Source: Deltaproteobacteria bacterium
Lineage (GTDB): Bacteria > Desulfobacterota > Binatia > DP-6
NCBI GenBank assembly: GCA_005888095.1
Contig: VBKF01000161.1
Span: 1-56,004 of the forward strand
Length of the DNA stretch: 56,004 bases
Direction: 5' to 3'
Below are positions 13,584-52,182 of the stretch, one piece after another; the stretch's first letter is position 1; every line of letters begins with the position of its first letter. A model generated the notes under the pieces. That model had not been told where the DNA came from, searched no databases, and saw only the letters and a list, made by a program, of their open reading frames with translations. The translations under genes and the position numbers were made by a program.

Positions 13584-13982
13584 TCACGCGGTCAGCACCG
13601 CCTGCGTCTGCGTCACCTGCGCCACGCGGCGCCCGTCCGCGTCGCTGAGGTCCGTCTGCACCACGATCACCCGCCGCCCGACGTGCAGGGGCCGGGTGAC
13701 GCCCTCCACGTGGCCGCCGCGCACGGCGCGGAAGAAGTTCGTCTTCGACTCGATCGTCGTCGTGCCGGCGCCGGCCGGGAGGTTCAGGAAGGCGCAGATC
13801 GCGCCCAGCGTGTCGCCGAGCGCCATGAGTACCGCGCCGTGGAGCACGCCGCCCGTCGTGCAGCGCTCCGGCGCCCACAGTAGGCGCCCGCGCACCTCCT
13901 CGGGCACGGCCGCCGTCACCTCGACGCCGAGCGCGACGGCGAAGGGCATCGACTGGGCGAGCGCCTGCGGATCGACCGACAT
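13584..13982 (-). CDS. PaaI-family hotdog thioesterase
   Basis: A 132-residue single hotdog-fold protein. The HGAVLMALGDTLGA stretch (the conserved 'HGG..ALAD' helix region) carries the catalytic aspartate typical of PaaI/YbgC-type acyl-CoA thioesterases, and TTTIESKTNFFRAV is the central strand. It likely hydrolyses an aromatic or medium-chain acyl-CoA in the cytoplasm. Its stop lies 2 nt from the stop of the convergent aldehyde dehydrogenase, leaving no room for a separate terminator. It ends upstream of the GMC operon on the same strand, with a 33-nt gap after the GMC stop. Confidence 0.85.
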   Translation of the reverse strand: MSVDPQALAQSMPFAVALGVEVTAAVPEEVRGRLLWAPERCTTGGVLHGAVLMALGDTLGAICAFLNLPAGAGTTTIESKTNFFRAVRGGHVEGVTRPLHVGRRVIVVQTDLSDADGRRVAQVTQTQAVLTA

Positions 13983-19935: not shown

Positions 19936-21429
19936 ATGTCGCACGCCCCGATCACCACGCTCCTCCTCACCACCCTGGCTCGGCAGCTTGCCCTTCCTGC
20001 TGCAGTTCATCCAGCCGCGAGCGGTGTCCCCCCCGAGGCCAGGCGCCTCCTCGCCTGCCAGGCGGACGTGGGCCGAGCCGCTCGGCGGCTCCTGGTGCGC
20101 AGGGACCTCGCGATCGTGCGCTGCCTCGACCTTGCGCTCCGCTGCCCCGGAGCGCTCGCCGGTACGCCGACGAGCGCCAACGACGCGTGCTTTGCGGCCG
20201 CCGCCGCAGGCTGCGCCGCCGCGCTCGCCCGGGCCGGCACCGCCGAGCGCCCCGTCGAGGACATGGGGCCGCGCTGCACGGTGGCCGGACGGACCTCCAT
20301 ATCTCCCCAGGCCTTCCTCGGCGACGACGGGCTGGCCCTCGAGCGCGACGCCCCCTTCTGCCCGGACCTGGGGACCGCGAGTCCCGCCGATGCCTCGCGC
20401 TGCCAGAGCCTCGCCCTCGCCTGCCAGGTCGACGCCGCCGTCCGGGCGTCGGTGCCTCGCGCGGCGGAGCTCCTCGGCCGGATCGGAATCGCGTTGGATG
20501 AAGACGGCCGCTGCCTGGGGTCCCCGGCGTGCGGCAACGGCGAGATCGACGGCGACGAGGAGTGCGACGATGGGGCCGACAACTCCGACGTCCTCCCCGA
20601 CCACTGCCGGACCGACTGCACCGAGCCGCGCTGCGGGGACGGCGTGGTCGACTCGGACGAGGAGTGCGACGACGGGAACCAGACGGACGGCGACGGCTGC
20701 GCCGCCGATTGCACCGTCGAGCCCGGGGTGTGCGGCAACGGCGTCGTCGACGACGACGAGGAGTGCGACGACGGCGCCGCCAACTCCGATATCCTCCCGG
20801 ACCACTGCCGCACCGACTGCACCGCGCCGAGCTGTGGCGACGGCGTCGTCGATCCGGCTCACGGCGAGACCTGCGAGCCCCCCGCCACCCTCCTGTGCAC
20901 GGCCGATTGCCGCTCGCGGCTGCCGTTTCCTCCGGGCCCACTTCGAGCGCGTGCTGGCGGGCCCGACGATCTCGCGCGCTGCCAGCAGGGAATCGCGGGC
21001 GAGGCGGCGCGGTTCTTCCGCGACAGCCGCCGGCTCGTCGAGCGCTGCGTCATGGGCGCCACCCGCTGCGTCGTCGGCGGAGGGGACGCCTGCCTCGCGC
21101 GTGCCAGTGCCCGATGCGTCGCCGCAGCCACCCGGCGCGATACGCTCCGCGCGCGTGCCGTCCCGCGCCTCGGGAGCGCGTGCGGGGCGCTCTCCGTCGA
21201 CCGCCTCCTCGACGCGCTCGCCTTCGCGGACACGGCCAGCGCCTGCCCGCTTCCCGGGAGCGGTCCTCCCACCCCCGCCGACCTCCTGGGTTGCGTGCTC
21301 GACCAGATCCAGTGCGTGGCCCAGAAATCGGTGGCGCTGACGGTCCCCCGCGCCTACGAGTTCCTCTCCACCCTCGACCTCGATCCCGACGCGCTCTACC
21401 CCTGCGTCCCCGACCTCGGGGACGAGTGA
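19936..21429 (+). CDS. Secreted cysteine-rich protein with four DUF4215-type repeats inside a duplicated module
   Basis: A 497-residue exported protein. The first about 30 residues are a likely signal peptide (ITTLLLTTLARQLALPAAV). Residues 199 to about 316 hold four Myxococcus-type cysteine repeats (pattern CGxGxxDxxEECDDG). They are flanked by two copies of another module: about residues 38-198 and 318-497. Each copy has a paired-cysteine helical segment (LLACQADVGRAARRLLVRRD against LARCQQGIAGEAARFFRDS) and ends in an ADxxxC...VPRA-EL/F segment. DUF4215 repeats are calcium- or disulfide-stabilised and typical of exported proteins in deltaproteobacteria. No ribosome site is visible. Function unknown; a surface or matrix role is likely. 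Confidence 0.8.
   Translation: MSHAPITTLLLTTLARQLALPAAVHPAASGVPPEARRLLACQADVGRAARRLLVRRDLAIVRCLDLALRCPGALAGTPTSANDACFAAAAAGCAAALARAGTAERPVEDMGPRCTVAGRTSISPQAFLGDDGLALERDAPFCPDLGTASPADASRCQSLALACQVDAAVRASVPRAAELLGRIGIALDEDGRCLGSPACGNGEIDGDEECDDGADNSDVLPDHCRTDCTEPRCGDGVVDSDEECDDGNQTDGDGCAADCTVEPGVCGNGVVDDDEECDDGAANSDILPDHCRTDCTAPSCGDGVVDPAHGETCEPPATLLCTADCRSRLPFPPGPLRARAGGPDDLARCQQGIAGEAARFFRDSRRLVERCVMGATRCVVGGGDACLARASARCVAAATRRDTLRARAVPRLGSACGALSVDRLLDALAFADTASACPLPGSGPPTPADLLGCVLDQIQCVAQKSVALTVPRAYEFLSTLDLDPDALYPCVPDLGDE
20530..20880 (+). repeat. Four DUF4215 units arranged as a duplicated pair
   Basis: Units begin at residues 199, 233, 266 and 300 of the protein. Units 1 and 3 share GDEECDDG or DDEECDDG followed by ...NSDVLPDHCRTDC or ...NSDILPDHCRTDC, and the DNA is nearly identical. 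Units 2 and 4 start CGDGVVD. This indicates duplication of a two-unit block rather than single units; unit 4 is shortened. Confidence 0.75.
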
Positions 21430-23732: not shown

Positions 23733-25622
23733 TCAGGGATAGACCAGCGCCGTCTTCTTCGCCCGCAGCTCCATCGTCGACTGCGAGCACTGGTTCCCCA
23801 CGCGCACCGTGATGCGGACGTTCGTCCCCTCGACGGCCCGATCCGGGAGCTTGCGGCTGATGGCGCGGAAGACCACCCGGCCGTTCCGCCGCTTGACGAA
23901 GCGGCCGTCCCGGAGGCCCCCCGCGAACGCCCCGTCCTTGTCGCAGAAGCTGAAGCGGCGCGGGGTCGGGCGCATCCAGTGGCCGGCCGGGACGGTCGCG
24001 CAGACGACCTGTCCGGTGCCGTCGGCGATCTGCACCGAGGTGTCGTCGCGCGTCGGGTCGAAGCCGGCCGGCGTGAACTGGGAGTAGATCGCCTTCACCC
24101 GCATCCGGTTGCGCCCCTTCGCCGCCGGCCGCTTCAGCATGACGCGCTTGGGCGTCAGGGCGAGGAGCTGCTCGCAGCAGTCCGGGTCCTCCCAGTCGAC
24201 CAGCCCGTCGCCGTCGTTGTCGATGCAGTCGCCGCAGATCTCGACCGGCTTGACCGGCGGGCGGCAGTCGGCGATCACCATGTGCGCGCACACGCCCGCC
24301 GAGCAGCTGTCGCCCGTGCACGGATCGTGGTCGTCGCAGTCGCCCGCCGTGGTGCAGGGCCGCTGGCAGCCCGGAATCGTCTCGTGGCTGCAGCCGCCCT
24401 CGCCGTGGCAAGTGTCGGTGGTGCAGGCGTTGCCGTCGTCGCAGAGGCCGTCGCCGTCGACATGCCCGTCGCAGTCGTTGTCGACGCCGTCGCAGGTCTC
24501 GCGAACCGCGCGATCGACGCCGAAGGTCCCGCTGTAGGTGACCGGCGGCGCGTTCGTGGCCGACGCGGTGATCGACTCCGTGAAACCGTCGTCGCCGCAG
24601 CCGGGTTGCGCGTCGGCCGAGAGCTCGATCGTCACCGTCGACCCGGCCGGCATCAGCGGGACGCTCACCTTCAGGGGATTCACGGACTCGACGATCGCAT
24701 CGTCGGACGACACCGCCAGCGAGGGATCCCCCATGTAGCCCGGGAGCGCGGCCCCCTCGATGGCGACCGCCTTGGCGGGGGCCGGACCGTCGTTGTGCAC
24801 GGTGATCGAGTAGACCACCGGGGTCGTGACGTTGACCGCGGCGCTCTCGGGCGTGAGCGTCGCGTCGATCGAGAGGGTGCCGCTCGGCAGAAAGGCGGCG
24901 CCCCCGAGGAAGCCACAGTCGAAGTGGTCCTTGTTGAAGCTGTTGACGTTCGACGACGTCGCCGGCGCGAAGAGCGAGCTGGCGAGATCGCCGGCGTCGG
25001 CGATCACGCCGTTCGCGACGAGCACGTTGATCGGCATCGCGAAGTCGAGGAAGTAGTCTGGGGTTCCGCCGAACGCGGACCCGTCGCCGGTCGGAACCGC
25101 CCGCACGAGGGGAGTCGCGTTGACGGTCGACCCGTTGGCCGCGTTGACCCCCTGGGCGAAGACGCGGACCTCGGCGCCGTCGTTGAAGTTCGGTGAGAAG
25201 CTCAGGTCCTTGGCCGATGTGTTGGCCCAGAGCTCGAGGCTGTCGGACTTGCCGTTCACCGCGATCTCGTACTGGTACTGCTTCGGGTTCCCCGACGGCA
25301 CCTGCATGAGCGCGGACCAGATGTTCTCGACAAAGCCGCCCTTCGACGTCGGATCGGAGTCGAGGCGGTACCGGAAGTAGAGGTACTTCGCGTCGTAGGC
25401 GTAGTACGTGGCGGGATGCGACGGGTCCCCGACCAGGTCCGCCGACGACGGGCTCTCGTCTCCCGCGGGGTCGCCGCCGGGGGCGCAGTCGAGAGCCGCC
25501 CAGCGAACGGCGCCGAAATCAGGGTCCCCGGCCGCGCCCGCCGCGGTCGCTCCGAGGACGACGAGTGCAACCAGGCCAAAGCAGGCCGTGCGAAGACCCT
25601 GCGCGCGATTCGATCGCTTCAC
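23733..25622 (-). CDS. Large exported protein with MopE-type cysteine motifs and a C-terminal domain shared with its neighbour
   Basis: A 629-residue protein with GTG start 9 nt after GGGAGGGG and a signal peptide (CFGLVALVVLGATAAGAAG). Residues about 30-290 are a beta-rich domain resembling carbohydrate-binding or DOMON-like sandwiches. Residues about 285-390 look like a CARDB/DUF11 repeat (VVYSITVHNDGPAPAKAV). Then comes CDGVDNDCDGHVDGDGLCDD, the MopE metal-binding motif, and several CxxDxC-type disulfide segments. The last about 140 residues (from LTPKRVMLKRP) match the C-terminus of the cytochrome/propeller protein next door. Probably located in the outer membrane or at the cell surface; MopE-like proteins can bind copper or calcium. 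Function unknown. Confidence 0.75.
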   Translation of the reverse strand: MKRSNRAQGLRTACFGLVALVVLGATAAGAAGDPDFGAVRWAALDCAPGGDPAGDESPSSADLVGDPSHPATYYAYDAKYLYFRYRLDSDPTSKGGFVENIWSALMQVPSGNPKQYQYEIAVNGKSDSLELWANTSAKDLSFSPNFNDGAEVRVFAQGVNAANGSTVNATPLVRAVPTGDGSAFGGTPDYFLDFAMPINVLVANGVIADAGDLASSLFAPATSSNVNSFNKDHFDCGFLGGAAFLPSGTLSIDATLTPESAAVNVTTPVVYSITVHNDGPAPAKAVAIEGAALPGYMGDPSLAVSSDDAIVESVNPLKVSVPLMPAGSTVTIELSADAQPGCGDDGFTESITASATNAPPVTYSGTFGVDRAVRETCDGVDNDCDGHVDGDGLCDDGNACTTDTCHGEGGCSHETIPGCQRPCTTAGDCDDHDPCTGDSCSAGVCAHMVIADCRPPVKPVEICGDCIDNDGDGLVDWEDPDCCEQLLALTPKRVMLKRPAAKGRNRMRVKAIYSQFTPAGFDPTRDDTSVQIADGTGQVVCATVPAGHWMRPTPRRFSFCDKDGAFAGGLRDGRFVKRRNGRVVFRAISRKLPDRAVEGTNVRITVRVGNQCSQSTMELRAKKTALVYP

Positions 25623-25953
25623 GATACACCCCTCCCGCAAAACAGCCGACCGTGTCGGTGTGGATTTGGCGGGGGGACAGTCCAATCTCCGTGCCGGACC
25701 TGTCGAACCGGCGTCGCAGCGGCACGTTTTCGCCGCTCCCTGGAGCGACGCGCTCGCAGTGGGCTGCGAAATATCTAGCCTTCAGGACAGACGCCAAAGC
25801 ACGCGCCCGGGATGGCTCCGTGTCCTCCCCTCCGCAGGCGCTTCGGTGCCTCGCATGCGCACCGCCCCGGCGGCGCGCCGCTCCGGCGTGGCGCGGCTGC
25901 ACGAATGCCTGGCCCGTCTCGCAAACCGGCAAGCGCGCCGGGGCGGCGGGCCC
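25623..25953. other. Intergenic region between two large exported-protein genes
   Basis: This 331-bp gap between two minus-strand genes is less GC-rich than its surroundings and includes an AATATCT patch near 25770. On the minus strand CGGCACGGAGATTGGA (about 25685-25700) resembles a -24/-12 element but lacks the essential -12 GC, so I do not call it. The gap must hold the promoter of the MopE-type gene. No hairpin of note was found. Confidence 0.4.
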
Positions 25954-28900
25954 TCAGGGCGGGCAGCTCGCCGGCGGCGGGGTCCTCGGCTGGGCGTTGA
26001 ACCGGTCGAGCGCGTCGTTCGCCGCCGTGGAGGGCGGATTGCCGCTCGCCTTGGCGGGGGCGTTCGCACACCAGGTCCTCGTCCCCACGGTCAGGCGAAC
26101 GGCAACGCTGCCCTGCGGCGGCTGGTCGAGCCTGTAGGTCCAGTTCGAGTGCCCGCCGCGGACCGTGATCCGGTCCGACTTCACGATGACGCTGGAGATG
26201 GGCCCGTCGGGGTCGCGGCTGCTGAAGCGCCAGCCGAGGAAGCTCGTGGCCCCGCCGATGCGCGACCACCCCGAAGGGGGCAGCGACACCGTCACCGCCT
26301 GGCCCGTGCCCGCAGAGTCGGAGACGGTCAGCGACCCGCCGGCGGCCGTCGGGTCGCCGCTGGAGCCGGGCAGCGAGGGGACGATCCGGTTGGCGGCCGC
26401 GTCGGCGCTCGATACCGAGCCGAACGCGACCCGGCGCGCGTCCGGGTTGGGCGCGGGCGTGCTGCGATCCCGCAGCTTCAGGGACGTCGTCTCGATCAGG
26501 GTGGCGGGCGGCAGCGTGGTCGTCGTGGTCGTGCTGGTCGTCGTCGTGGTGCTCGACGTGGTGCTCGTGCTCGACGTGGTGGTGGTCGGCGCCAGGGTGG
26601 TGCTCGTCGTGGTCGTCGCGACGGTCGTCGTCGTCGTTGTCGCCGCCAGCGTCGTGCTGGTGCTCGTCGTCGAGGTGGTGGTCGTCGTCGTGGACGCGGG
26701 AGGCGCCGTCGTGGTGGTGGTCGTGGCGGGCGGCGCGGTCGTCGTCGTGGTGCTCGTCGTCGTGGTCGTCGTCGTGGGCGGCGCCGTCGTGGTGGTGGTC
26801 GTCGTCGTGGTGGTCGTCGTCGTGGTGGTCGTCGACGTCGTGGTGGTGGTGGCGGGCGGCGCGGTCGTGGTCGTGGTGCTCGTCGTCGTGGTCGTTGACG
26901 TCGTGGTGGTCACGGTCGTGGTGGAGACCCCGGGGTTGCTCGCCGGGTCCGCGGGATCCGTGCCGGCATCGAGCTCCGTGCGGTCGAAGAAGCCGTCCTC
27001 GTCGCGGTCGACCCCGATGCGCGTGCCGGTGCCGGGGGGTACCGCGGTATAGGTCAGCTCCTGGCCGACGACGGCCGCCTGTGCCCGCAGGCTCGCCTCG
27101 CCGAGGAGCGGCTCGCTCGCGCGGTCGCTCTGGAACTGGCCCGCGCCCGGCTGGTACAGCCAGCCCCGCGCCGCGCCACCGAGCACGCCCTTCACGACGA
27201 GGTCGCACTCGCTGGCGTTGGCGCGCGCGATCATGAGGTTGATGCGGCCGGTGACGGTCGAATCGCTGAACGTCGTCGACGTGGCCGACACCTGCTGGCC
27301 CACGATCGGGGCCAGTCCCGTGTCGAAGGCCATCAGGAAGGCCTCCACCTGCCGCCGCTTGGTGTCGGGATTGCTGCCGAAGTTGAAGACGCTCGCGTGC
27401 AGGAAGTCGAAGACCGTGTCGATGCTGCCGTCGTGCAGGAAGCCGAAGCCGCGCACCTGGTCGCCGAGGAAGCCGGTGGCCGGCGCCTGCGTGCCGGGCG
27501 GCACGCCGAACATGCCGACCTTCTGGTAGAGGTTCCGCAGGTGGGCGATCTTGAACTCCTGCGGCTCGCCCTCGAAGGAGGAGAAGCCGTCGGTGCCGAG
27601 CGGCACCTTGTGGCAGAACGCGCACTGGAGGACCCCGCCGTCGATCGCCGAGTTCAGGAAGATGTTCTGTCCGGTGGACTGCGTCGCGGTGAGGCTGTTG
27701 TCGAGGGCGCGGATCGGGTTCGGCGGGTAGCGGACGGTCAGGATGAAGTCGGTGTAGCTCTGCATCTCGGCCGTCGAGAGCTGGCCCGCCGCACCGAGGA
27801 GCCCGACGAAGGCCGGGTTGAACTTCTTGAAGGCCTGATCCTCCGCGAGCGCATCACCGCCCGAGTCGTTGCCCCCGGTGCGGTCGCCGCGCCAGTGCAT
27901 GGGACCGGCCGGGTCCGCCATGCCGCGCAGGCTCTGCGTCGTCATCGGGCCCTTCATCGGGTGGAAGACCGGGCTGCCGCTCGGCTTCGGGACCCGGAAC
28001 GGGTTCGGGTTGTTCACCACCGTCCCGAAGGGATCGCCGAGGTCCCAGGCCAGGCTGTCGAAGTCGCCGAAGATGTGGCAGCTCGCGCACGCCGAGTCGC
28101 CGTGACCCGAACGCCTGGCGTCGTACAGGAAGAGACGCCCGTTCCTGGCGGCGGGCGGGGACGGGTCGTAGCGGAGCGGCACGGTGGCGCTCACGGCGCG
28201 CGTCGCCGGGTTCGAGGCGTTGCCGACGATCGAGATCGTGTGGTCGATGCGGTTCATCACGTAGAGCCGGTCGCGCGCCGCGTCGAGCACGACGCCGCTC
28301 GGCCCGTTGCCGACGGCGAGCTGCGTCTCGGTGATGACACCCGCCTCGAGGTCGTCGGCGTTGAAGATGCCGATCTTGCCCGACCCGAAGCCGGCCACGA
28401 AGAGCGTGTGGCCGTCGCTCGAGAACGCCAGGTCGGTGGGGAACGCGAGGCTCCGGTCGATCTCGCTCTGCGGGCCCGGCACCGTCCCGTAGTTGATGTG
28501 CGGGTTCAGGTGATGCGGCGTGGCCGTCGTCCCGCTGATGACCGTGATGCGGCTCTCGGCCAGGTGTCCGCGGACGAAGGGCTCGAAGCGCACCTGGTTC
28601 TGCGCGTCGGTGTTGGCGACGTACACCTTCCCGGTGGTCGGCCGCACGGCCATGTTGAAGAGCACCGTGCCGACGCCCGTGACGAAGCTCGTGCCGGAGA
28701 CGAGTGCCAGCGGCGTGGCGTCGGCATTCAGGAGAAAGACGTCCTTGTCCGGCACGGCGAAGGCCACCGACGCGCTCCAGTCGCGCCCGATCTCGTCCCG
28801 CCACCTCGAGCCGTCGAACTTGACGATGAGACCCGTGTCCGGCGCGCCCCCCGTGGATCCGGACGGCGGCGGCGGCAGCCCGCCGTTGTTGGTGACCACC

Positions 28901-29586
28901 TGCTCGGTGATCGCCGTCGTCTGGTTGCCCGAGTCGAGGATCGCGGCGTACACGACGGTGCCGTCGGGGCTCGCGGCGAGCGCCCGCGGCGTGTCGCCGG
29001 ACAGCGCGAGGGGCGAGCCGGAGATCGGCGTCCCGCCGAGCGCCGCGCCGAGGTTGTTGGCGTCGAAGGCCCACACGTCGGCGCGGCCGACCCCCGCCGT
29101 CGTGAGCTGGGGATCGCCGGGCCGGTTCTGGCCGCGGTGGGCGCACGTGATGAAGGCCCGGCTGTGCGCGCTGCCCGCAAACACGAGGTCGCGCGGCTCG
29201 TCGCCGACGAGCAGCGTGCGGACGACGCGCGAGCGCGTGACGTCGGTCGGGTCGACCTCGACGATGCTCACGCTGTCGGACAGGTGGTTCACCACCCACG
29301 CCTCGGTGCGCCCGGCGAGGTTCGTCCGCGCCGCCACGGCGACCGGCTCGAGGCCGACCGGGACCTCGGCGGCGAGTGTCAGCCCGCCGGCGGTGATCGT
29401 GTAGATGGCGAGGCGATTGTCGGGCGTGTTGACGGCGAAGAGCCGATCGCCCGCCGGCGAGATCGCGAGCGGTCGCACGTGCCCGCTCTCGAAGTTCACG
29501 AATGCCGCTCCGGCGCGCTGCGGCGCCCAGAGGCAGAGGAGCACGGAAGCCAGGCGAGCGAACGACCGAACCGGACCCGACGGCAT
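25954..29586 (-). CDS. Giant exported beta-propeller / di-haem cytochrome c protein with Thr-rich linker
   Basis: A 1210-residue protein with ATG 6 nt after GGGAGGG and a signal peptide (ASVLLCLWAPQRAGA). Residues about 30-480 form a YVTN/NHL-type beta-propeller with repeats such as LFVAGFGSGKIGIF and LYVMNRIDHTISIV. Two haem c sites follow: CASCH (Cys500, Cys503, His504) and CAFCH (Cys655, Cys658, His659), in a layout like di-haem cytochrome c peroxidase/MauG proteins (MTTQSLRG, FLHDGSIDTVFDFL). A calcium-loop motif (DRDEDGFFDRTELD) precedes a threonine-rich linker at about 887-1025. The C-terminal about 185 residues match the neighbour's tail. Periplasmic or surface electron transfer is likely; its substrate is unknown. 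Confidence 0.85.
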   Translation of the reverse strand: MPSGPVRSFARLASVLLCLWAPQRAGAAFVNFESGHVRPLAISPAGDRLFAVNTPDNRLAIYTITAGGLTLAAEVPVGLEPVAVAARTNLAGRTEAWVVNHLSDSVSIVEVDPTDVTRSRVVRTLLVGDEPRDLVFAGSAHSRAFITCAHRGQNRPGDPQLTTAGVGRADVWAFDANNLGAALGGTPISGSPLALSGDTPRALAASPDGTVVYAAILDSGNQTTAITEQVVTNNGGLPPPPSGSTGGAPDTGLIVKFDGSRWRDEIGRDWSASVAFAVPDKDVFLLNADATPLALVSGTSFVTGVGTVLFNMAVRPTTGKVYVANTDAQNQVRFEPFVRGHLAESRITVISGTTATPHHLNPHINYGTVPGPQSEIDRSLAFPTDLAFSSDGHTLFVAGFGSGKIGIFNADDLEAGVITETQLAVGNGPSGVVLDAARDRLYVMNRIDHTISIVGNASNPATRAVSATVPLRYDPSPPAARNGRLFLYDARRSGHGDSACASCHIFGDFDSLAWDLGDPFGTVVNNPNPFRVPKPSGSPVFHPMKGPMTTQSLRGMADPAGPMHWRGDRTGGNDSGGDALAEDQAFKKFNPAFVGLLGAAGQLSTAEMQSYTDFILTVRYPPNPIRALDNSLTATQSTGQNIFLNSAIDGGVLQCAFCHKVPLGTDGFSSFEGEPQEFKIAHLRNLYQKVGMFGVPPGTQAPATGFLGDQVRGFGFLHDGSIDTVFDFLHASVFNFGSNPDTKRRQVEAFLMAFDTGLAPIVGQQVSATSTTFSDSTVTGRINLMIARANASECDLVVKGVLGGAARGWLYQPGAGQFQSDRASEPLLGEASLRAQAAVVGQELTYTAVPPGTGTRIGVDRDEDGFFDRTELDAGTDPADPASNPGVSTTTVTTTTSTTTTTSTTTTTAPPATTTTTSTTTTTTTTTTTTTTTTAPPTTTTTTTSTTTTTAPPATTTTTTAPPASTTTTTTSTTSTSTTLAATTTTTTVATTTTSTTLAPTTTTSSTSTTSSTTTTTSTTTTTTLPPATLIETTSLKLRDRSTPAPNPDARRVAFGSVSSADAAANRIVPSLPGSSGDPTAAGGSLTVSDSAGTGQAVTVSLPPSGWSRIGGATSFLGWRFSSRDPDGPISSVIVKSDRITVRGGHSNWTYRLDQPPQGSVAVRLTVGTRTWCANAPAKASGNPPSTAANDALDRFNAQPRTPPPASCPP
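26514..26927 (-). repeat. Low-complexity threonine-codon tract (linker of the cytochrome protein)
   Basis: About 414 bp of ACC/ACG threonine codons, broken by APP and ST blocks, encode residues about 887-1025. The pattern resembles mucin-like, possibly O-glycosylated stalks. The tract contains repeated hexamers, so its length may vary between strains and assemblies may err here. Confidence 0.85.
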
Positions 29587-44761: not shown

Positions 44762-45562
44762 ATGCGACGCGAGAAATCCAACTACATCATCCAGTCGGTC
44801 TCCCACTCGCTCGACGTCCTCGAGCAGTTCTTCGGCGAGGCCGACGAGCTCGGGGTGACCGAGCTCTCCAAGCGTCTCAAGCTCCACAAGAACAACGTCT
44901 TCCGCCTGCTGGCGACCCTCGAGTCGCGGGGCTACATCGAGCAGAACCGGGCGACCGAGAACTATCGGCTCGGCATCCGCTGCCTGCAGCTCGGCCAGAG
45001 CTACGTGCAGCACATGGGCCTCCTCCACCAGGCGAGGCCGATCATCGCCGACCTCGTCCGCCAGGTGCGCGAGACGACCTACATCGCGGTGCTGCGTCGC
45101 GAGTCCGTCGTGCCGATCGAGGTCGTCGAGGCCGACCGCCCCGTGCGCATCGTCTCGCCGCTCGGCGAGGCGCTGCCCCTCCACTGCACCGCGGCCGGCA
45201 AGGCGCTCCTCGCCTTCGAGCCGGACGACGCCCTCCGCACGCTCCTGCCCGACGGCCTGCCCCGCTTCACCGAGCGCACCGCCGTCGAGCGGCAGGCGCT
45301 CGTCCAGCAGCTGCGCAGCGTCGCGAACGCCGGCTACGCGGTCGACGCGGGCGAGCACCTCGAGGACGTGCGCGCGGTGGCCGCGCCGGTCCGCGACTAC
45401 ACGCGCACCGTGGTCGGCACGCTGGCCGTGGTCGGCCCCGCCTACCGCCTGCCCCCCGAGCGCATCGAGAAGGAGCTCGCGCCGCTCGTCGTGAAGGCCG
45501 GTCGCGAGCTGTCGAGCCGCCTCGGCTTCGACCTCGGCCGCCGCGCCAGCGCCGCAGATTGA
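44762..45562 (+). CDS. IclR-family transcriptional regulator
   Basis: A 266-residue regulator. The N-terminal winged helix (SVSHSLDVLEQF, then VTELSKRLKLHKNNVFRLLATLESRGYIEQ) is followed by the IclR effector domain with PLHCTAAGKALLAF, GYAVDAGEHLEDVRAVAAPV and the C-terminal dimer helix. IclR proteins bind small organic acids. It is 69 nt upstream of etfB on the same strand, so it very likely controls the electron-transfer flavoprotein operon, in a position often seen in deltaproteobacteria. Only a GAAG precedes the ATG. Confidence 0.92.
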   Translation: MRREKSNYIIQSVSHSLDVLEQFFGEADELGVTELSKRLKLHKNNVFRLLATLESRGYIEQNRATENYRLGIRCLQLGQSYVQHMGLLHQARPIIADLVRQVRETTYIAVLRRESVVPIEVVEADRPVRIVSPLGEALPLHCTAAGKALLAFEPDDALRTLLPDGLPRFTERTAVERQALVQQLRSVANAGYAVDAGEHLEDVRAVAAPVRDYTRTVVGTLAVVGPAYRLPPERIEKELAPLVVKAGRELSSRLGFDLGRRASAAD

Positions 45563-45631
45563 CTGCTCTTGCCGCGCTGTGTAAGGAACCCGAACCCGCC
45601 CTGAGAGCAGCCCTCCGGAGGAGAGCCCGAC

Positions 45632-46387
45632 GTGAAGATCCTCGTCCCCGTCAAGCGCGTCCCGGATCCCGAGACGGTCATCAAGCTCGCGCCCGACGGC
45701 ACCTCGATCGTGACCGACAACGTCAAGTGGGTGATCAACCCCTTCGACGAGATCGCGATCGAAGAGGCGCTGCGCATCAAGGAGAAGCTCGCCGGCACGG
45801 AGGTCGTACTCCTGTCGATCGGGCAGAAGGCCGCCCAGGAGCAGCTCCGCACGGGGCTCGCCATGGGCGCCGACCGCGCCATCCTCGTGCTCGCCGACCG
45901 GCCCCTCGAGCCGCTAACGGTGGCGCGCGTGATCCACAAGCTCGCCGGCACGGAGAAGCCCGACCTGATCCTCCTGGGCAAGCAGGCGATCGACGACGAC
46001 TCGAACTGCGTCGGTCAGATGCTCGCCGAGCTGCTCGGCTGGCCGCAGGCCACGTTCGCGTCGAAGGTCGAGATCGAACCGGACCAGAAGTCGGCGCGGG
46101 TGACGCGCGAGGTGGACGGTGGGCTCGAGACGGTCGCCATTCCGCTGCCGGCGGTGGTCACGGCCGATCTCCGCCTGAACGAGCCCCGCTACGCGTCGCT
46201 GCCGGGCATCATGAAGGCGCGCAAGAAGGAGCTCAAGGAGATCCCGCTCGCCGACGTCGGCGCGGACGTCACCCCGCGGACGAAGGTCGTGAAGCTCGAG
46301 ACGCCGCCCAAGCGGACGGGCGGGCGCAAGGTGGCCTCCGTGCAGGAGCTCGTCAAAGTGCTGCACGACGAAGCGAAGGTGATCTGA
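45632..46387 (+). CDS. etfB: Electron transfer flavoprotein beta subunit
   Basis: A 251-residue AMP-binding subunit of ETF, which takes electrons from acyl-CoA dehydrogenases. It starts [20 protein letters not shown] and has the family sequence [21 protein letters not shown] and [25 protein letters not shown] start 8 nt after GGAGGAGA. etfA follows after 2 nt. It belongs to the classical respiratory ETF group by sequence; a bifurcating type is not indicated. The membrane acceptor is probably the quinone oxidoreductase encoded at 52209-54275. Confidence 0.95.
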
Positions 46388-49404: not shown

Positions 49405-50814
49405 CTAGCCCGGCCGCCGTGCCTCGAGGACGACCGGCATGCCGGCCGAGGGCGCAACGGTGACGGTGCGCAGCACGGGGCGCATCCGGTAGCCGGGCGC
49501 GACCCGCAGGTCGACGCGCGCGAGCAGCTCGGCGAGCACGACCTTCATCTCGTAGGTCGCGAACGCCGCGCCGAGGCACCGCCGGTCCCCGCCCCCGAAC
49601 GGGAGAAAGGCGTAGGGGCTCGGCCGGGCGCCGACGAAGCGCTCGGGCGCGAAGCGCTCGGGGTCGGGCCAGAGGTCGGGCCGGTGGTGGGTCAGGTAGA
49701 TCGACGCCGAGACGCCCACGCCCGCGGGCAGGTCGAGGCCGCCGATCCGGGCCGGTGCCTTCAGCACCCGGAGGACGTTGGTGGCCACGGGCGTCAGCCG
49801 GGCGGACTCCTTGATGACGGCATCGAGGTACTCGAGCTTCACGACGTGCTCGGGCCCCACGGGTCCCCCGTCGAGGACCCGCCCCAGCTCGGCGCGCATC
49901 TTCTCGAGGACGTCGGGCCGGGGGAGCACGTGATGGAGCACCCACGCAAGCGACGTCGCGGTGGTCTCGTGGCCGGCCATGAGGAGCGTGAACATCTCGT
50001 CCAGCAGCTCCTCGTCCTGCATCGCCTCGCCGTGCTCGTCACGGGCCTCGATCAGCATCGACAGCACATCGGAGCGCCCGCCCGTCCCCTCCCGGCGGCG
50101 CCGCGCGATCTCGGCCAGGAGGATTGCCGCGAAGTCCCGCCGATCCCGCACGAAGCGGCCCCACGGCGAGAAGCGCCCGAGGTCGATGCGCAGCGCCGGG
50201 ATGAAGAGGAATGCCGCTGCCGAGCTGTTGGCGAGCGCGAGGAGCCGGAGGAGGCACGCCCGCAGGCGCGCGAGCTCCTCTCCTTCGTCGATTCCGAAGA
50301 CGGCGCGCAGGATCACGTCGAGCGTGATCGCCTGCAGCTCGCGGTGCACCGGGAACGGACGGCCGAGCGACCAGGTGTCGATCACGCGGCGGGTGATCTC
50401 CCGCATGATGCGCCCGTAGACGTGGATGCGTTCGCCGTGGAACGGCGGCAGCAGGAGCTTGCGCTCCCGGAAGTGACGGGCGCCGTCGAGCACGAGGAGC
50501 GAGTGCCAGCCCAGGATGGGGCCGAGCACCCAGGCATTCCCTTCGCCGCCGCGCAGCTCGTCGGGGTCGCCCGCGAAGATGTCCCTGATGGCCTCGGGGT
50601 CCGCGAAGATCACCGTCGGCGGCTGCCCGAGGGCGCGCGCCGTGAAGCAATGGCCCCAGCGGCGCCCGCTCTCCTCCACGGCCTCATACGGCCGGCGAAC
50701 GTAGCGGAGGCTCTGGAAGAGCGGCGGTCGCCGCGGCCCGGGGGGAAGAGCCGCGCGTGGGGACGGACCCGCCGTCCGAGCGGGCGGCGCCTGGAACCGG
50801 GGTTCGGCCAGCAT
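49405..50814 (-). CDS. Cytochrome P450
   Basis: A 469-residue soluble P450. The I-helix AGHETTATSLAW has the oxygen-activating acid-threonine pair, ESAR is the ExxR motif, DPERFAPERFVG is the PERF segment and FLPFGGGDRRCLG contains the haem cysteine (Cys413). No membrane anchor. ATG 50814 follows GGAGGT by 8 nt. It is the second gene of an operon led by a TetR regulator, 23 nt apart. Redox partners are not encoded nearby. Possible substrates are fatty acids, alkanes or terpenoids, not decidable here. Confidence 0.92.
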   Translation of the reverse strand: MLAEPRFQAPPARTAGPSPRAALPPGPRRPPLFQSLRYVRRPYEAVEESGRRWGHCFTARALGQPPTVIFADPEAIRDIFAGDPDELRGGEGNAWVLGPILGWHSLLVLDGARHFRERKLLLPPFHGERIHVYGRIMREITRRVIDTWSLGRPFPVHRELQAITLDVILRAVFGIDEGEELARLRACLLRLLALANSSAAAFLFIPALRIDLGRFSPWGRFVRDRRDFAAILLAEIARRRREGTGGRSDVLSMLIEARDEHGEAMQDEELLDEMFTLLMAGHETTATSLAWVLHHVLPRPDVLEKMRAELGRVLDGGPVGPEHVVKLEYLDAVIKESARLTPVATNVLRVLKAPARIGGLDLPAGVGVSASIYLTHHRPDLWPDPERFAPERFVGARPSPYAFLPFGGGDRRCLGAAFATYEMKVVLAELLARVDLRVAPGYRMRPVLRTVTVAPSAGMPVVLEARRPG

Positions 50815-50837
50815 GGGATCTACCTCCCGGGCCTGGC

Positions 50838-51434
50838 TCAGCGCGGGAGCAGGCCCTGCATGGTGATGTCGGCGTAGAGCGGCAGGACGGTCTCGTACGG
50901 GTAGTAGCGCTGGTTGTGCACCTGGTTCAGGGCGTCGCCGCCGACGAACAGGATGAACGCCGCGCACTGGGGGTCGACGTCGCGCAGCGTCCCCTCGCGG
51001 ATGCCGTCGCGGATGACGTCGGCCATCATGGCGACGTTCTGCGTCACGAGCTGCTCGTGCAGCTCGTCGACGAGCGGCGCGAACACGATCTCCTCGTCAC
51101 GCCGGAAGACGGAGTTGATCAGGGAGTTCTCGCGGTTGAACGCGACGCTCGCCTGGGCGAGGCGTCCGAGCCGCTCGACCGCGGTCCCCGGGCCGGCGAG
51201 CGCCCGGCGGGCCCGCGCGAGCCAGGCCTCGTGCAGCTCGCGCACGACCGCGCGAAAGACGTCTTCCTTGCTCTCGAAGTAGCGGTAGATCGTGCCGGCG
51301 GAGACCCCCGCCTCGCGCGCGATCTCGGCGATGCCGGTGCGCCGGTAGCCGAAGGTCGCGAAGCGCCGTTCGGCCGCGGCGAGGATGCGCTCGCGCGCTG
51401 CGGAAGCAGCCTCGGCGACCGCCGTCTTTGGCAT
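50838..51434 (-). CDS. TetR-family transcriptional regulator of the P450 operon
   Basis: A 198-residue repressor with the helix-turn-helix TGIAEIAREAGVSAGTIYRYFESKEDVF. The C-terminal domain has FNRENSLINSVFRRDEEIVF and a tyrosine-rich end. No ribosome site precedes the ATG, so the transcript may be leaderless. An operator palindrome and promoter lie immediately upstream, which implies autoregulation together with the P450. Confidence 0.9.
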   Translation of the reverse strand: MPKTAVAEAASAARERILAAAERRFATFGYRRTGIAEIAREAGVSAGTIYRYFESKEDVFRAVVRELHEAWLARARRALAGPGTAVERLGRLAQASVAFNRENSLINSVFRRDEEIVFAPLVDELHEQLVTQNVAMMADVIRDGIREGTLRDVDPQCAAFILFVGGDALNQVHNQRYYPYETVLPLYADITMQGLLPR

Positions 51435-51436
51435 AG

Positions 51437-51470
51437 TGAACGATTAATTCAGTTGTTCATTTCGTGTCAA
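51437..51470 (-). promoter_or_regulatory. Promoter with palindromic operator of the TetR-P450 operon
   Basis: The minus strand has TTGACA at 51470-51465. The inverted repeat TGAAC-N13-GTTCA (51437-51459) sits between it and the start codon, where a bound TetR dimer would block initiation. The stretch is much AT-richer than its surroundings. Confidence 0.5.
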
Positions 51471-51512
51471 TAGCCTTGGAACGGGCTCCTTGGGGATGGC
51501 CGGACGTGGACG

Positions 51513-51567
51513 CCTTGCAGGCGCGTCCGCAGCTCGTTACGGTATGCAACTGAGTATTACTGCAAGG
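51513..51567 (+). promoter_or_regulatory. Inverted repeat at the toxin-antitoxin promoter
   Basis: CCTTGCAG (51513-51520) and CTGCAAGG (51560-51567) are exact inverses 39 bp apart. The second arm contains the AAGGAG ribosome site of the antitoxin gene. Together they could be operator half-sites for the RHH antitoxin, or an mRNA hairpin masking the ribosome site. Confidence 0.4.
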
Positions 51568-51574
51568 AGTACCG

Positions 51575-51832
51575 ATGGCGCATCGAAAGACGGCGATTGC
51601 CATCCCCGAGGACGTCCTCGACGAGGTCGACCGGGCGGCGCGCGCGCGCGGCGAATCACGCAGCCGTTTCATCAGTCGAATCCTCCGCCTGGCAATGCGG
51701 GCACGCCGCGACGCCGAGATCACCCGGCGCCTCGACGCCCTGTTCGCGAACGAGCCCCTTGCCGAGGAGCAGCGCCGCGAGGCTGAAGACCTCGGCGGGC
51801 TCGCGGTCGACTGGAGCGACGAGCACTGGTGA
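51575..51832 (+). CDS. Ribbon-helix-helix antitoxin (MazE/CopG-like)
   Basis: An 85-residue protein. The first about 45 residues (KTAIAIPEDVLDEVDRAARA, then SRSRFISRILRLAM) are a ribbon-helix-helix DNA-binding domain; the acidic tail (EPLAEEQRREAEDLGG) should wrap and neutralise the toxin. Good AAGGAG site 6 nt before the ATG. Its stop overlaps the toxin ATG (TGATG), the usual coupling of such pairs. Probable autorepressor with the inverted repeat upstream. Confidence 0.85.
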   Translation: MAHRKTAIAIPEDVLDEVDRAARARGESRSRFISRILRLAMRARRDAEITRRLDALFANEPLAEEQRREAEDLGGLAVDWSDEHW

Positions 51833-52182
51833 TGCACCAAGGCGAGGTCTACTGGCTCCGCTTCACCGGTGAAGGTTCAGAACCGCGCGGACGGCGACCC
51901 GCCGTCGTCGTACAGCATGATCGATTCAACCGGAGTGCTATCCGGACGACGGTGGTCGCGGCCGTCACCTCGAACCTGCGACTGGCCGCGATGCCCGGCA
52001 ACGTCCGGCTCCGCAGGGGTGAGGCGAACGTACCTCGCCCGAGCGTCGTCAATGTGAGCCAGCTCCTGACCATCGATCGCGGGCGGCTCACGGAATGCCT
52101 GGGGACTCTGGGCAGCGAACGTCTCCGCGACGTTCGACGCGGTCTTGCACTGCTCTTCGGAATCGAGTCCGCCGACACCTGA
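51832..52182 (+). CDS. mazF: MazF/PemK-family endoribonuclease toxin
   Basis: A 116-residue toxin. GEVYWLRF opens the SH3-like barrel, RRPAVVVQHDRFNR has the catalytic arginine region, and TTVVAAVTSN and NVSQLLTIDRGRL complete the family pattern. It would cleave mRNA unless bound by the antitoxin encoded just upstream. Lies between the P450 operon and the ETF:quinone oxidoreductase with a 26-nt gap to the latter's convergent stop. Confidence 0.9.
   Translation: MHQGEVYWLRFTGEGSEPRGRRPAVVVQHDRFNRSAIRTTVVAAVTSNLRLAAMPGNVRLRRGEANVPRPSVVNVSQLLTIDRGRLTECLGTLGSERLRDVRRGLALLFGIESADT

Follow-up and report, generated by a model that had tools for sequence, protein, structure and literature searches.

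Related tails of two neighbouring exported proteins

The window analysed here is the whole 56,004-nucleotide stretch of contig VBKF01000161.1 from a deltaproteobacterial genome of the class Binatia (5.46 Mb in 271 contigs). Our subject is a domain found at the C-terminal ends of two exported proteins, A and B, whose minus-strand genes are arranged head to tail, 331 bases apart. Protein A (23733..25622, minus strand, GTG start with GGGAGG upstream) is of the MopE type. Its N-terminus resembles a signal peptide as judged by eye (VKRSNRAQGLRTACFGLVALVVLGATAAGAAGD, 25524..25622, minus strand) and is followed by a DUF11 domain (24555..24860, minus strand, Pfam E = 2.5 × 10−6) and by a Dicty_CTDC repeat with a MopE motif (24375..24500, minus strand), the motif scoring 19.9 bits, below the cut-off of 27. 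The last 148 residues (23736..24179, minus strand) are its A-type module. Protein B (25954..29586, minus strand, ATG start, GGGAGG upstream) gave weak propeller, CCP_MauG and TSP3 matches when scanned whole against Pfam and NCBIfam. It contains two CxxCH haem motifs, CASCH (28075..28089, minus strand, where the weak CCP_MauG match lies) and CAFCH (27610..27624, minus strand), then a Thr-rich stalk of 137 residues, 71% Thr (26515..26925, minus strand), and ends in a B-type module of 184 residues (25957..26508, minus strand).

An earlier note on this DNA had claimed that the two tails share a domain on otherwise unrelated proteins with modular, differing N-terminal parts. This description held. 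The shared stretches it quoted are all present (A/B: GTGQVV/GTGQAV, VPAGHWMR/LPPSGWSR, RRFSFCDKDG/WRFSSRDPDG and VRITV/VRLTV), both tails open with a Lys/Arg-rich segment, and the N-terminal parts differ in the features listed above. BLASTP of whole A against whole B returned a single match below E = 1 (27% over 102 residues, E = 0.004), which lies in the tails; at BLASTP sensitivity, the remainder of the two proteins is unrelated.

The A tail scored 19.6 bits with a profile built from 30 B-type copies. None of 2000 shuffled sequences reached this score (highest 14.3), and the highest of 73 other exported C-termini scored 7.0 bits. In reverse, the B tail scored 8.8 bits against an eight-row A-type profile (highest of 2000 shuffles 5.7), a direction that alone proves nothing because among the 73 real control C-termini one scored higher, at 11.2 bits. 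Alignment of the eight A-type with the 30 B-type rows by hhalign gave a probability of 94.6 (E = 6.7 × 10−8, 115 columns). An iterative search from the A tail at E = 0.001 gathered 9, 16, 52 and 71 open reading frames (ORFs) and reached the B family, within loci that had been selected for B-type matches. In the A-tail search of the source genome, an out-of-family match to an aldehyde-dehydrogenase-like ORF (L039) was discarded by eye as chance. The tails of A and B are homologous, diverged members of one domain family of about 110–180 residues. Judged by their sequences, A-type and B-type are distinct subtypes, because direct searches of their own genome link the tails weakly or not at all: the A tail recovers the B tail at E = 1.3 only, and the A tail is missing from the matches listed for the B tail. 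There may also be a third subtype, more distant than these, represented by the C-terminal stretches of L014 (G000:C177, ~45533-45739; E = 3.4 in the B-tail search) and L041 (G000:C209, ~13745-13873; E = 1.0 in the A-tail search), in which a K-rich opening like that of the module is combined with a conserved D-x-x-G / P-A-x-x-x pattern.

The AlphaFold model of the B tail (17 alignment rows) had a predicted local distance difference test score (pLDDT) of 91.5 and a predicted template modelling score (pTM) of 0.87. It is all beta, with eleven strands, the last of which (residues 166–169) sits in a C-terminal hook. The A tail (14 rows; pLDDT 78.2, pTM 0.73) was modelled with ten strands. Comparing the two predicted structures, as the earlier note had proposed, gave the first ten strands in the same order in both, and in each model a short helix precedes strand 3 and one of three residues precedes strand 5; the A model is not independent of the B model, as 13 of the 14 rows behind it are B-type. 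The family is predicted to be an immunoglobulin-like beta-sandwich of ten strands, to which the B-type would add the hook. Two cysteines of the modelled B tail near the ends of the hook, C144 and C179, probably form a disulfide.

No catalogued family accounted for the module. Its best solved-structure matches were SgrA adhesin (Z = 5.2) and FlaF (Z = 5.0) for B and CTLA-4 (Z = 7.2) for A; neither tail had a match with Z of at least 8, and the best values lie in the range of common arrangements, that of a generic sandwich. Foldseek returned nothing below E = 0.092, and a sequence search of the PDB with the B-type profile returned chance-like matches only (best E = 0.086, enoyl-ACP reductase). 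When whole A and B were compared with Pfam and NCBIfam at E up to 1, no model covered either tail. Among 30 B-type members scanned against both collections at E up to 0.1, every model matched at most one member, the strongest being DUF7092 (E = 8.2 × 10−4), and their Pfam matches included no SLH or other catalogued wall-binding domain. Eight A-type members had zero Pfam matches; for this subtype the NCBIfam scan covered A itself only. The earlier note had called the domain unrecognised, and with no Pfam or NCBIfam model reaching beyond one of the 30 B-type members, this was borne out. Word searches of the literature, which could miss one, found no publication on such a module, and a word search of a paper on Binatota genomes (PMC8262859) returned nothing on it.

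Spread, position and charge of the module

The source genome holds 16 B-type and 15 A-type places, one of them in common, or about 30 in all. One interrupted gene accounts for two of the B-type places, and the A-type places of lowest significance (E near 10−3) may be chance. B-type modules were found in 14 of 19 related genomes (7/7 of the same family and 7/12 elsewhere in the class), with a maximum of 36 places in one genome, and A-type modules likewise in 14 of 19. An even sample of the phylum, with 12 candidates per genome scored, was positive in 6 of 297 genomes, all six of the same class. A later sample centred on a metagenome-assembled genome labelled 'Myxococcota bacterium', with 15 candidates per genome scored, was positive in 13 of 235, which shows that the module extends beyond a single class. 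One carrier locus (L134) belongs to a 'Candidatus Binatia bacterium'. Ten genomes reached through named loci, and thus chosen for having a module, held 2 to 31 places each. Unselected sequence contained five ORFs with the module in 800 kb of genome G003 and three in 400 kb of G011. The scan of named contigs used a closer, seven-row B-type set.

Position was analysed in 99 B-type ORFs from G000 (16 places), G003 (28 listed of 29 places), G005 (11 regions, 36 places), G316 (20 regions, 31 places) and G318 (20 regions, 24 places), using a B-type profile refined on the same ORFs on which it was counted. Signal peptides were called from hydrophobic stretches by rule rather than with a trained predictor. 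Every one of the 99 ORFs has a single copy of the module. Eight are fragments or unclear; in the remaining 91 the module is C-terminal in 59, directly after the signal peptide in 24, stand-alone in five (a signal peptide, the module and little else) and internal in three. The internal copies, from G316 and G318, ruled out the idea, considered on the first 56 ORFs, that the module is strictly terminal. A-type copies were positioned at 30 loci, representing 30 of 103 A-type matches. Here 27 lie within 12 residues of the C-terminus and two more within 37 residues, with the profile end unmatched; in the last (L197) the module follows the signal peptide and precedes a Pro-rich tail.

The partners of the module are diverse. 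In 38 proteins of the C-terminal set they were Lactonase (12), SGL (6), PQQ_2 (4), CCP_MauG (3) and others found once or twice. In 21 N-terminal or stand-alone proteins they were GSDH (3), DUF4215 (3), Exo_endo_phos (2) and, once each, PhoD, GDSL lipase, carboxylesterase, DUF3089 and others. The GSDH enzymes carry the module at either end, N-terminally after the signal peptide in L073, L094 and L127 and C-terminally in L082. The module is a single-copy, movable unit of exported proteins, and its carriers include propellers, di-haem proteins, GSDH enzymes, phosphatases, lipases and esterases.

These data bear on the earlier note's expectation that a profile search would find many further copies, always C-terminal, on signal-peptide proteins. 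The copies are many, and the carriers in the source genome begin with a signal-peptide-like stretch; 'always C-terminal' failed for the B-type, both in its 32 non-C-terminal copies (24, five and three of 91, as above) and in the GSDH enzymes. The note's proposal of a sorting or anchoring domain fared accordingly in two halves, sorting being made unlikely by the B-type positions and the GSDH enzymes, and anchoring being the reading we prefer on grounds of charge.

The charge of the B-type module was compared with that of the adjoining protein in 84 of the 99 ORFs, those with near full-length matches and at least 80 flanking residues (flanks of up to 300 residues). The module is net positive in 82 of 84, and its flank in 3 of 84. 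Lys makes up 5.7–9.8% of modules and 0.6–1.5% of flanks (Wilcoxon P = 1.5 × 10−8 to 0.016, four groups). A-type modules are net positive in 23 of 28 cases and their flanks in 3 of 28 (P = 2.3 × 10−6). As a control, the last 165 residues of 73 module-free exported proteins are net positive in 22, and reach at least 5% Lys in four. Both window proteins also have an excess of positive charge in the module relative to the rest of the protein: +18 over the 148 residues of the A module against −48 over the 452 residues before it, and +6 over the last 180 residues of B against −24 over the preceding 1002. The module is cationic and the adjoining part of the protein acidic. We dropped 'lysine-rich' as the defining trait in favour of 'cationic', since the window B module has only three Lys. 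In 87 aligned B-type modules, strands 1, 2, 6, 7 and 8 show an alternation of Lys/Arg-rich with hydrophobic columns, which suggests one charged face.

Candidate roles of the module

With one copy in each protein, placed at either end of unrelated passengers whose charge is opposite to its own, the module looks like an accessory binding module. The most likely kind of accessory binding is retention on an anionic polymer. We propose, with a probability of roughly 0.45, that the module is a non-covalent electrostatic anchor, predicted from its sequence to bind an anionic surface polymer. The carrier would be exported by Sec and would then pass the outer membrane. Outside, the sandwich would use its Lys/Arg-rich face to bind an anionic polymer on the surface or in the matrix of the same cell, such as phosphorylated lipopolysaccharide, capsule or exopolysaccharide, and enzymes and stalked redox proteins would thereby be retained at the cell. 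In some carriers a Thr- or Pro-rich linker could let the acidic passenger stand off.

Several observations weigh against such an anchor. The most conserved residues (DP, W, G and C...C) look structural, and the sole indication of a charged face is the alternation along the strands. The modules that are not net positive number 2 of 84 in the B-type and 5 of 28 in the A-type, and that of window B, with its three Lys, is only mildly positive at +6. The contrast between acid and base may partly reflect the partners' own make-up, and three internal copies are less usual for an anchor.

Anchoring by charge has precedents. Listeria GW modules, as in InlB, are basic and hold proteins on lipoteichoic acid; they are SH3-like tandem repeats, whereas the present module is a single predicted sandwich and never occurred as two copies in the 99 ORFs. 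The closest working precedent is the wall-binding part of Lactobacillus S-layer proteins, by analogy of working and not by descent. In one group of these proteins the cationic wall-binding region lies at the C-terminus, and in L. brevis at the N-terminus (PMC2571106; PMC11181022); that of SlpA (SlpA motif, or teichoic-acid-binding domain) is likewise a cationic terminal region, by which the exported protein is kept on an anionic polymer of the wall. SlpA differs in belonging to a Gram-positive wall and to the S-layer protein only, and we found no sequence relation between it and the module, which is a predicted ten-strand sandwich on many different proteins.

It is possible, although we consider it unlikely, that the module instead resembles a carbohydrate-binding module (CBM), a sandwich that would target its enzyme to a substrate outside the cell rather than to the cell itself. 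One copy at either end of varied enzymes, with stand-alone forms, is usual CBM behaviour, and the module has this distribution on many hydrolases and oxidoreductases. Its predicted generic beta-sandwich fold is also compatible, CBM and FN3-like accessory domains being movable single beta-sandwiches on secreted enzymes. However, no CBM family appeared among the Pfam matches of the 30 B-type members, where family matches of any kind stopped at one member in 30, and the structural matches were weak (Z of 5.2 and 7.2). The partners act on unrelated substrates, and the conserved surface residues are Lys and Arg, not aromatic.

We think it distinctly unlikely that the module is a structural cap or spacer without a ligand, its positive charge balancing an acidic passenger through solubility or intramolecular docking. 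The change of charge sign inside each protein and the small number of stand-alone copies (5/91) would fit this, but stand-alone copies do exist and the pattern persists across unrelated passengers and genomes.

Very doubtful is a C-terminal secretion or sorting signal, as raised by the earlier note, recognized by a specialized machine of the outer membrane as in the type IX secretion system (T9SS). Many exported proteins end in the T9SS C-terminal domain (Por_Secre_tail), an immunoglobulin-like sandwich that the beta-sandwich predicted here resembles, and the C-terminal preference of both subtypes (59/91 and 27/30) points the same way. Unlike that domain, the B-type also occurs N-terminally, alone or internally, and some C-terminal copies are followed by a linker and a tag, described below. 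Together with the GSDH enzymes, the non-C-terminal B-type copies argue for an accessory binding or anchoring module rather than a C-terminal sorting signal. Nor was there a profile match: Por_Secre_tail and TIGR04183 were absent from the whole-protein matches of A and B (Pfam and NCBIfam, E up to 1), from those of the 30 B-type members (Pfam and NCBIfam, E up to 0.1) and from those of the eight A-type members (Pfam). A search for SprA_N found none in the source genome, yet also none in 14 control genomes; four secretins in the source genome make type II secretion or type IV pili possible. A sorting role for the A-type subtype alone is conceivable, because A-type copies do keep to the C-terminus. 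A tail of the sortase or exosortase CTERM kind (LPXTG, PEP-CTERM, MYXO-CTERM), with its motif, hydrophobic helix and basic end, does not fit, as A ends in ...ELRAKKTALVYP and B in ...TPPPASCPP with no hydrophobic helix, and the NCBIfam scan of whole A and B gave no CTERM model.

A separate short tag and the surroundings of the module

Some proteins end in a motif, GS[PA]SxAF[LV], followed by 1–11 residues. The strict pattern matched 19 of 5774 distinct closed ORFs of the examined loci and none after shuffling; one of the 19 (L174) falls inside a module and is probably chance. The tag stands directly after the module in, for example, L058, L093, L128, L147 and L168, and behind a Thr- or Pro-rich stalk in L116, L150, L156, L158, L163, L171 and L183. 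Proteins with the tag but no module are L218 and, side by side in G003:C1 (~50101-52163), two exported proteins that are small and Cys-rich; A and B themselves are without the tag. In the unselected 800 kb of G003, 2 of 4828 ORFs had the tag (0 shuffled). The tag is uncommon and its background not zero, because the 400 kb of G011 gave 0 of 2382 ORFs and one shuffled sequence that matched. NCBIfam CTERM models did not match eight tag proteins, and string searches of the literature for the tag found no relevant publication. The tag looks more like a sorting signal than the module does, and we regard it as a candidate sorting tag.

Taken together with the proposed electrostatic anchor, the tag allows a broader and more tentative suggestion, which we would not expect to hold in full. 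In a diderm lineage, one cationic beta-sandwich may serve across the proteome as a handle for surface display, whichever end it occupies and by charge alone; up to 36 places per genome would fix enzymes, propellers and stalked di-haem proteins to an anionic surface polymer, with the separate short tag as a possible true sorting signal. Such a handle would be a counterpart of SLH or SlpA anchoring, and as far as our literature searches show, it is undescribed for Gram-negatives. If true, this would explain how uncultured Binatia-like bacteria hold many exoenzymes and haem proteins at their surface, let annotators assign a family where dozens of proteins per genome now have a blank stretch, and provide Gram-negative cells with a small display tag that is cheap to test. 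Whatever the mechanism, membership of the family reliably marks a protein of these genomes as exported.

Elsewhere in the window, an exported-looking protein of 497 residues (19936-21429, plus strand) has DUF4215 repeats (Pfam E = 8.7 × 10−14), a Cys-rich repeat that three GSDH proteins have after their N-terminal module; neither inspection by eye nor the A- and B-type searches of the source genome revealed a module in the window protein. The A–B gene pair is kept in two sister species, with the B-type gene upstream. Identity to A is 70–81% at L216 and 74–77% at L217, in two pieces at each. The break falls near residue 410–470, where the Cys-rich middle is divergent or frame-shifted. In these genomes, the architecture of B forms a separate family. 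Its paralogues are large propeller proteins (L071, L072, L090, L092, L093, L097, L102 and L120) that open like B, with F-V-N/T-F-E-S-G-x-x-R-P-L-A, and each has a C-terminal B-type module.

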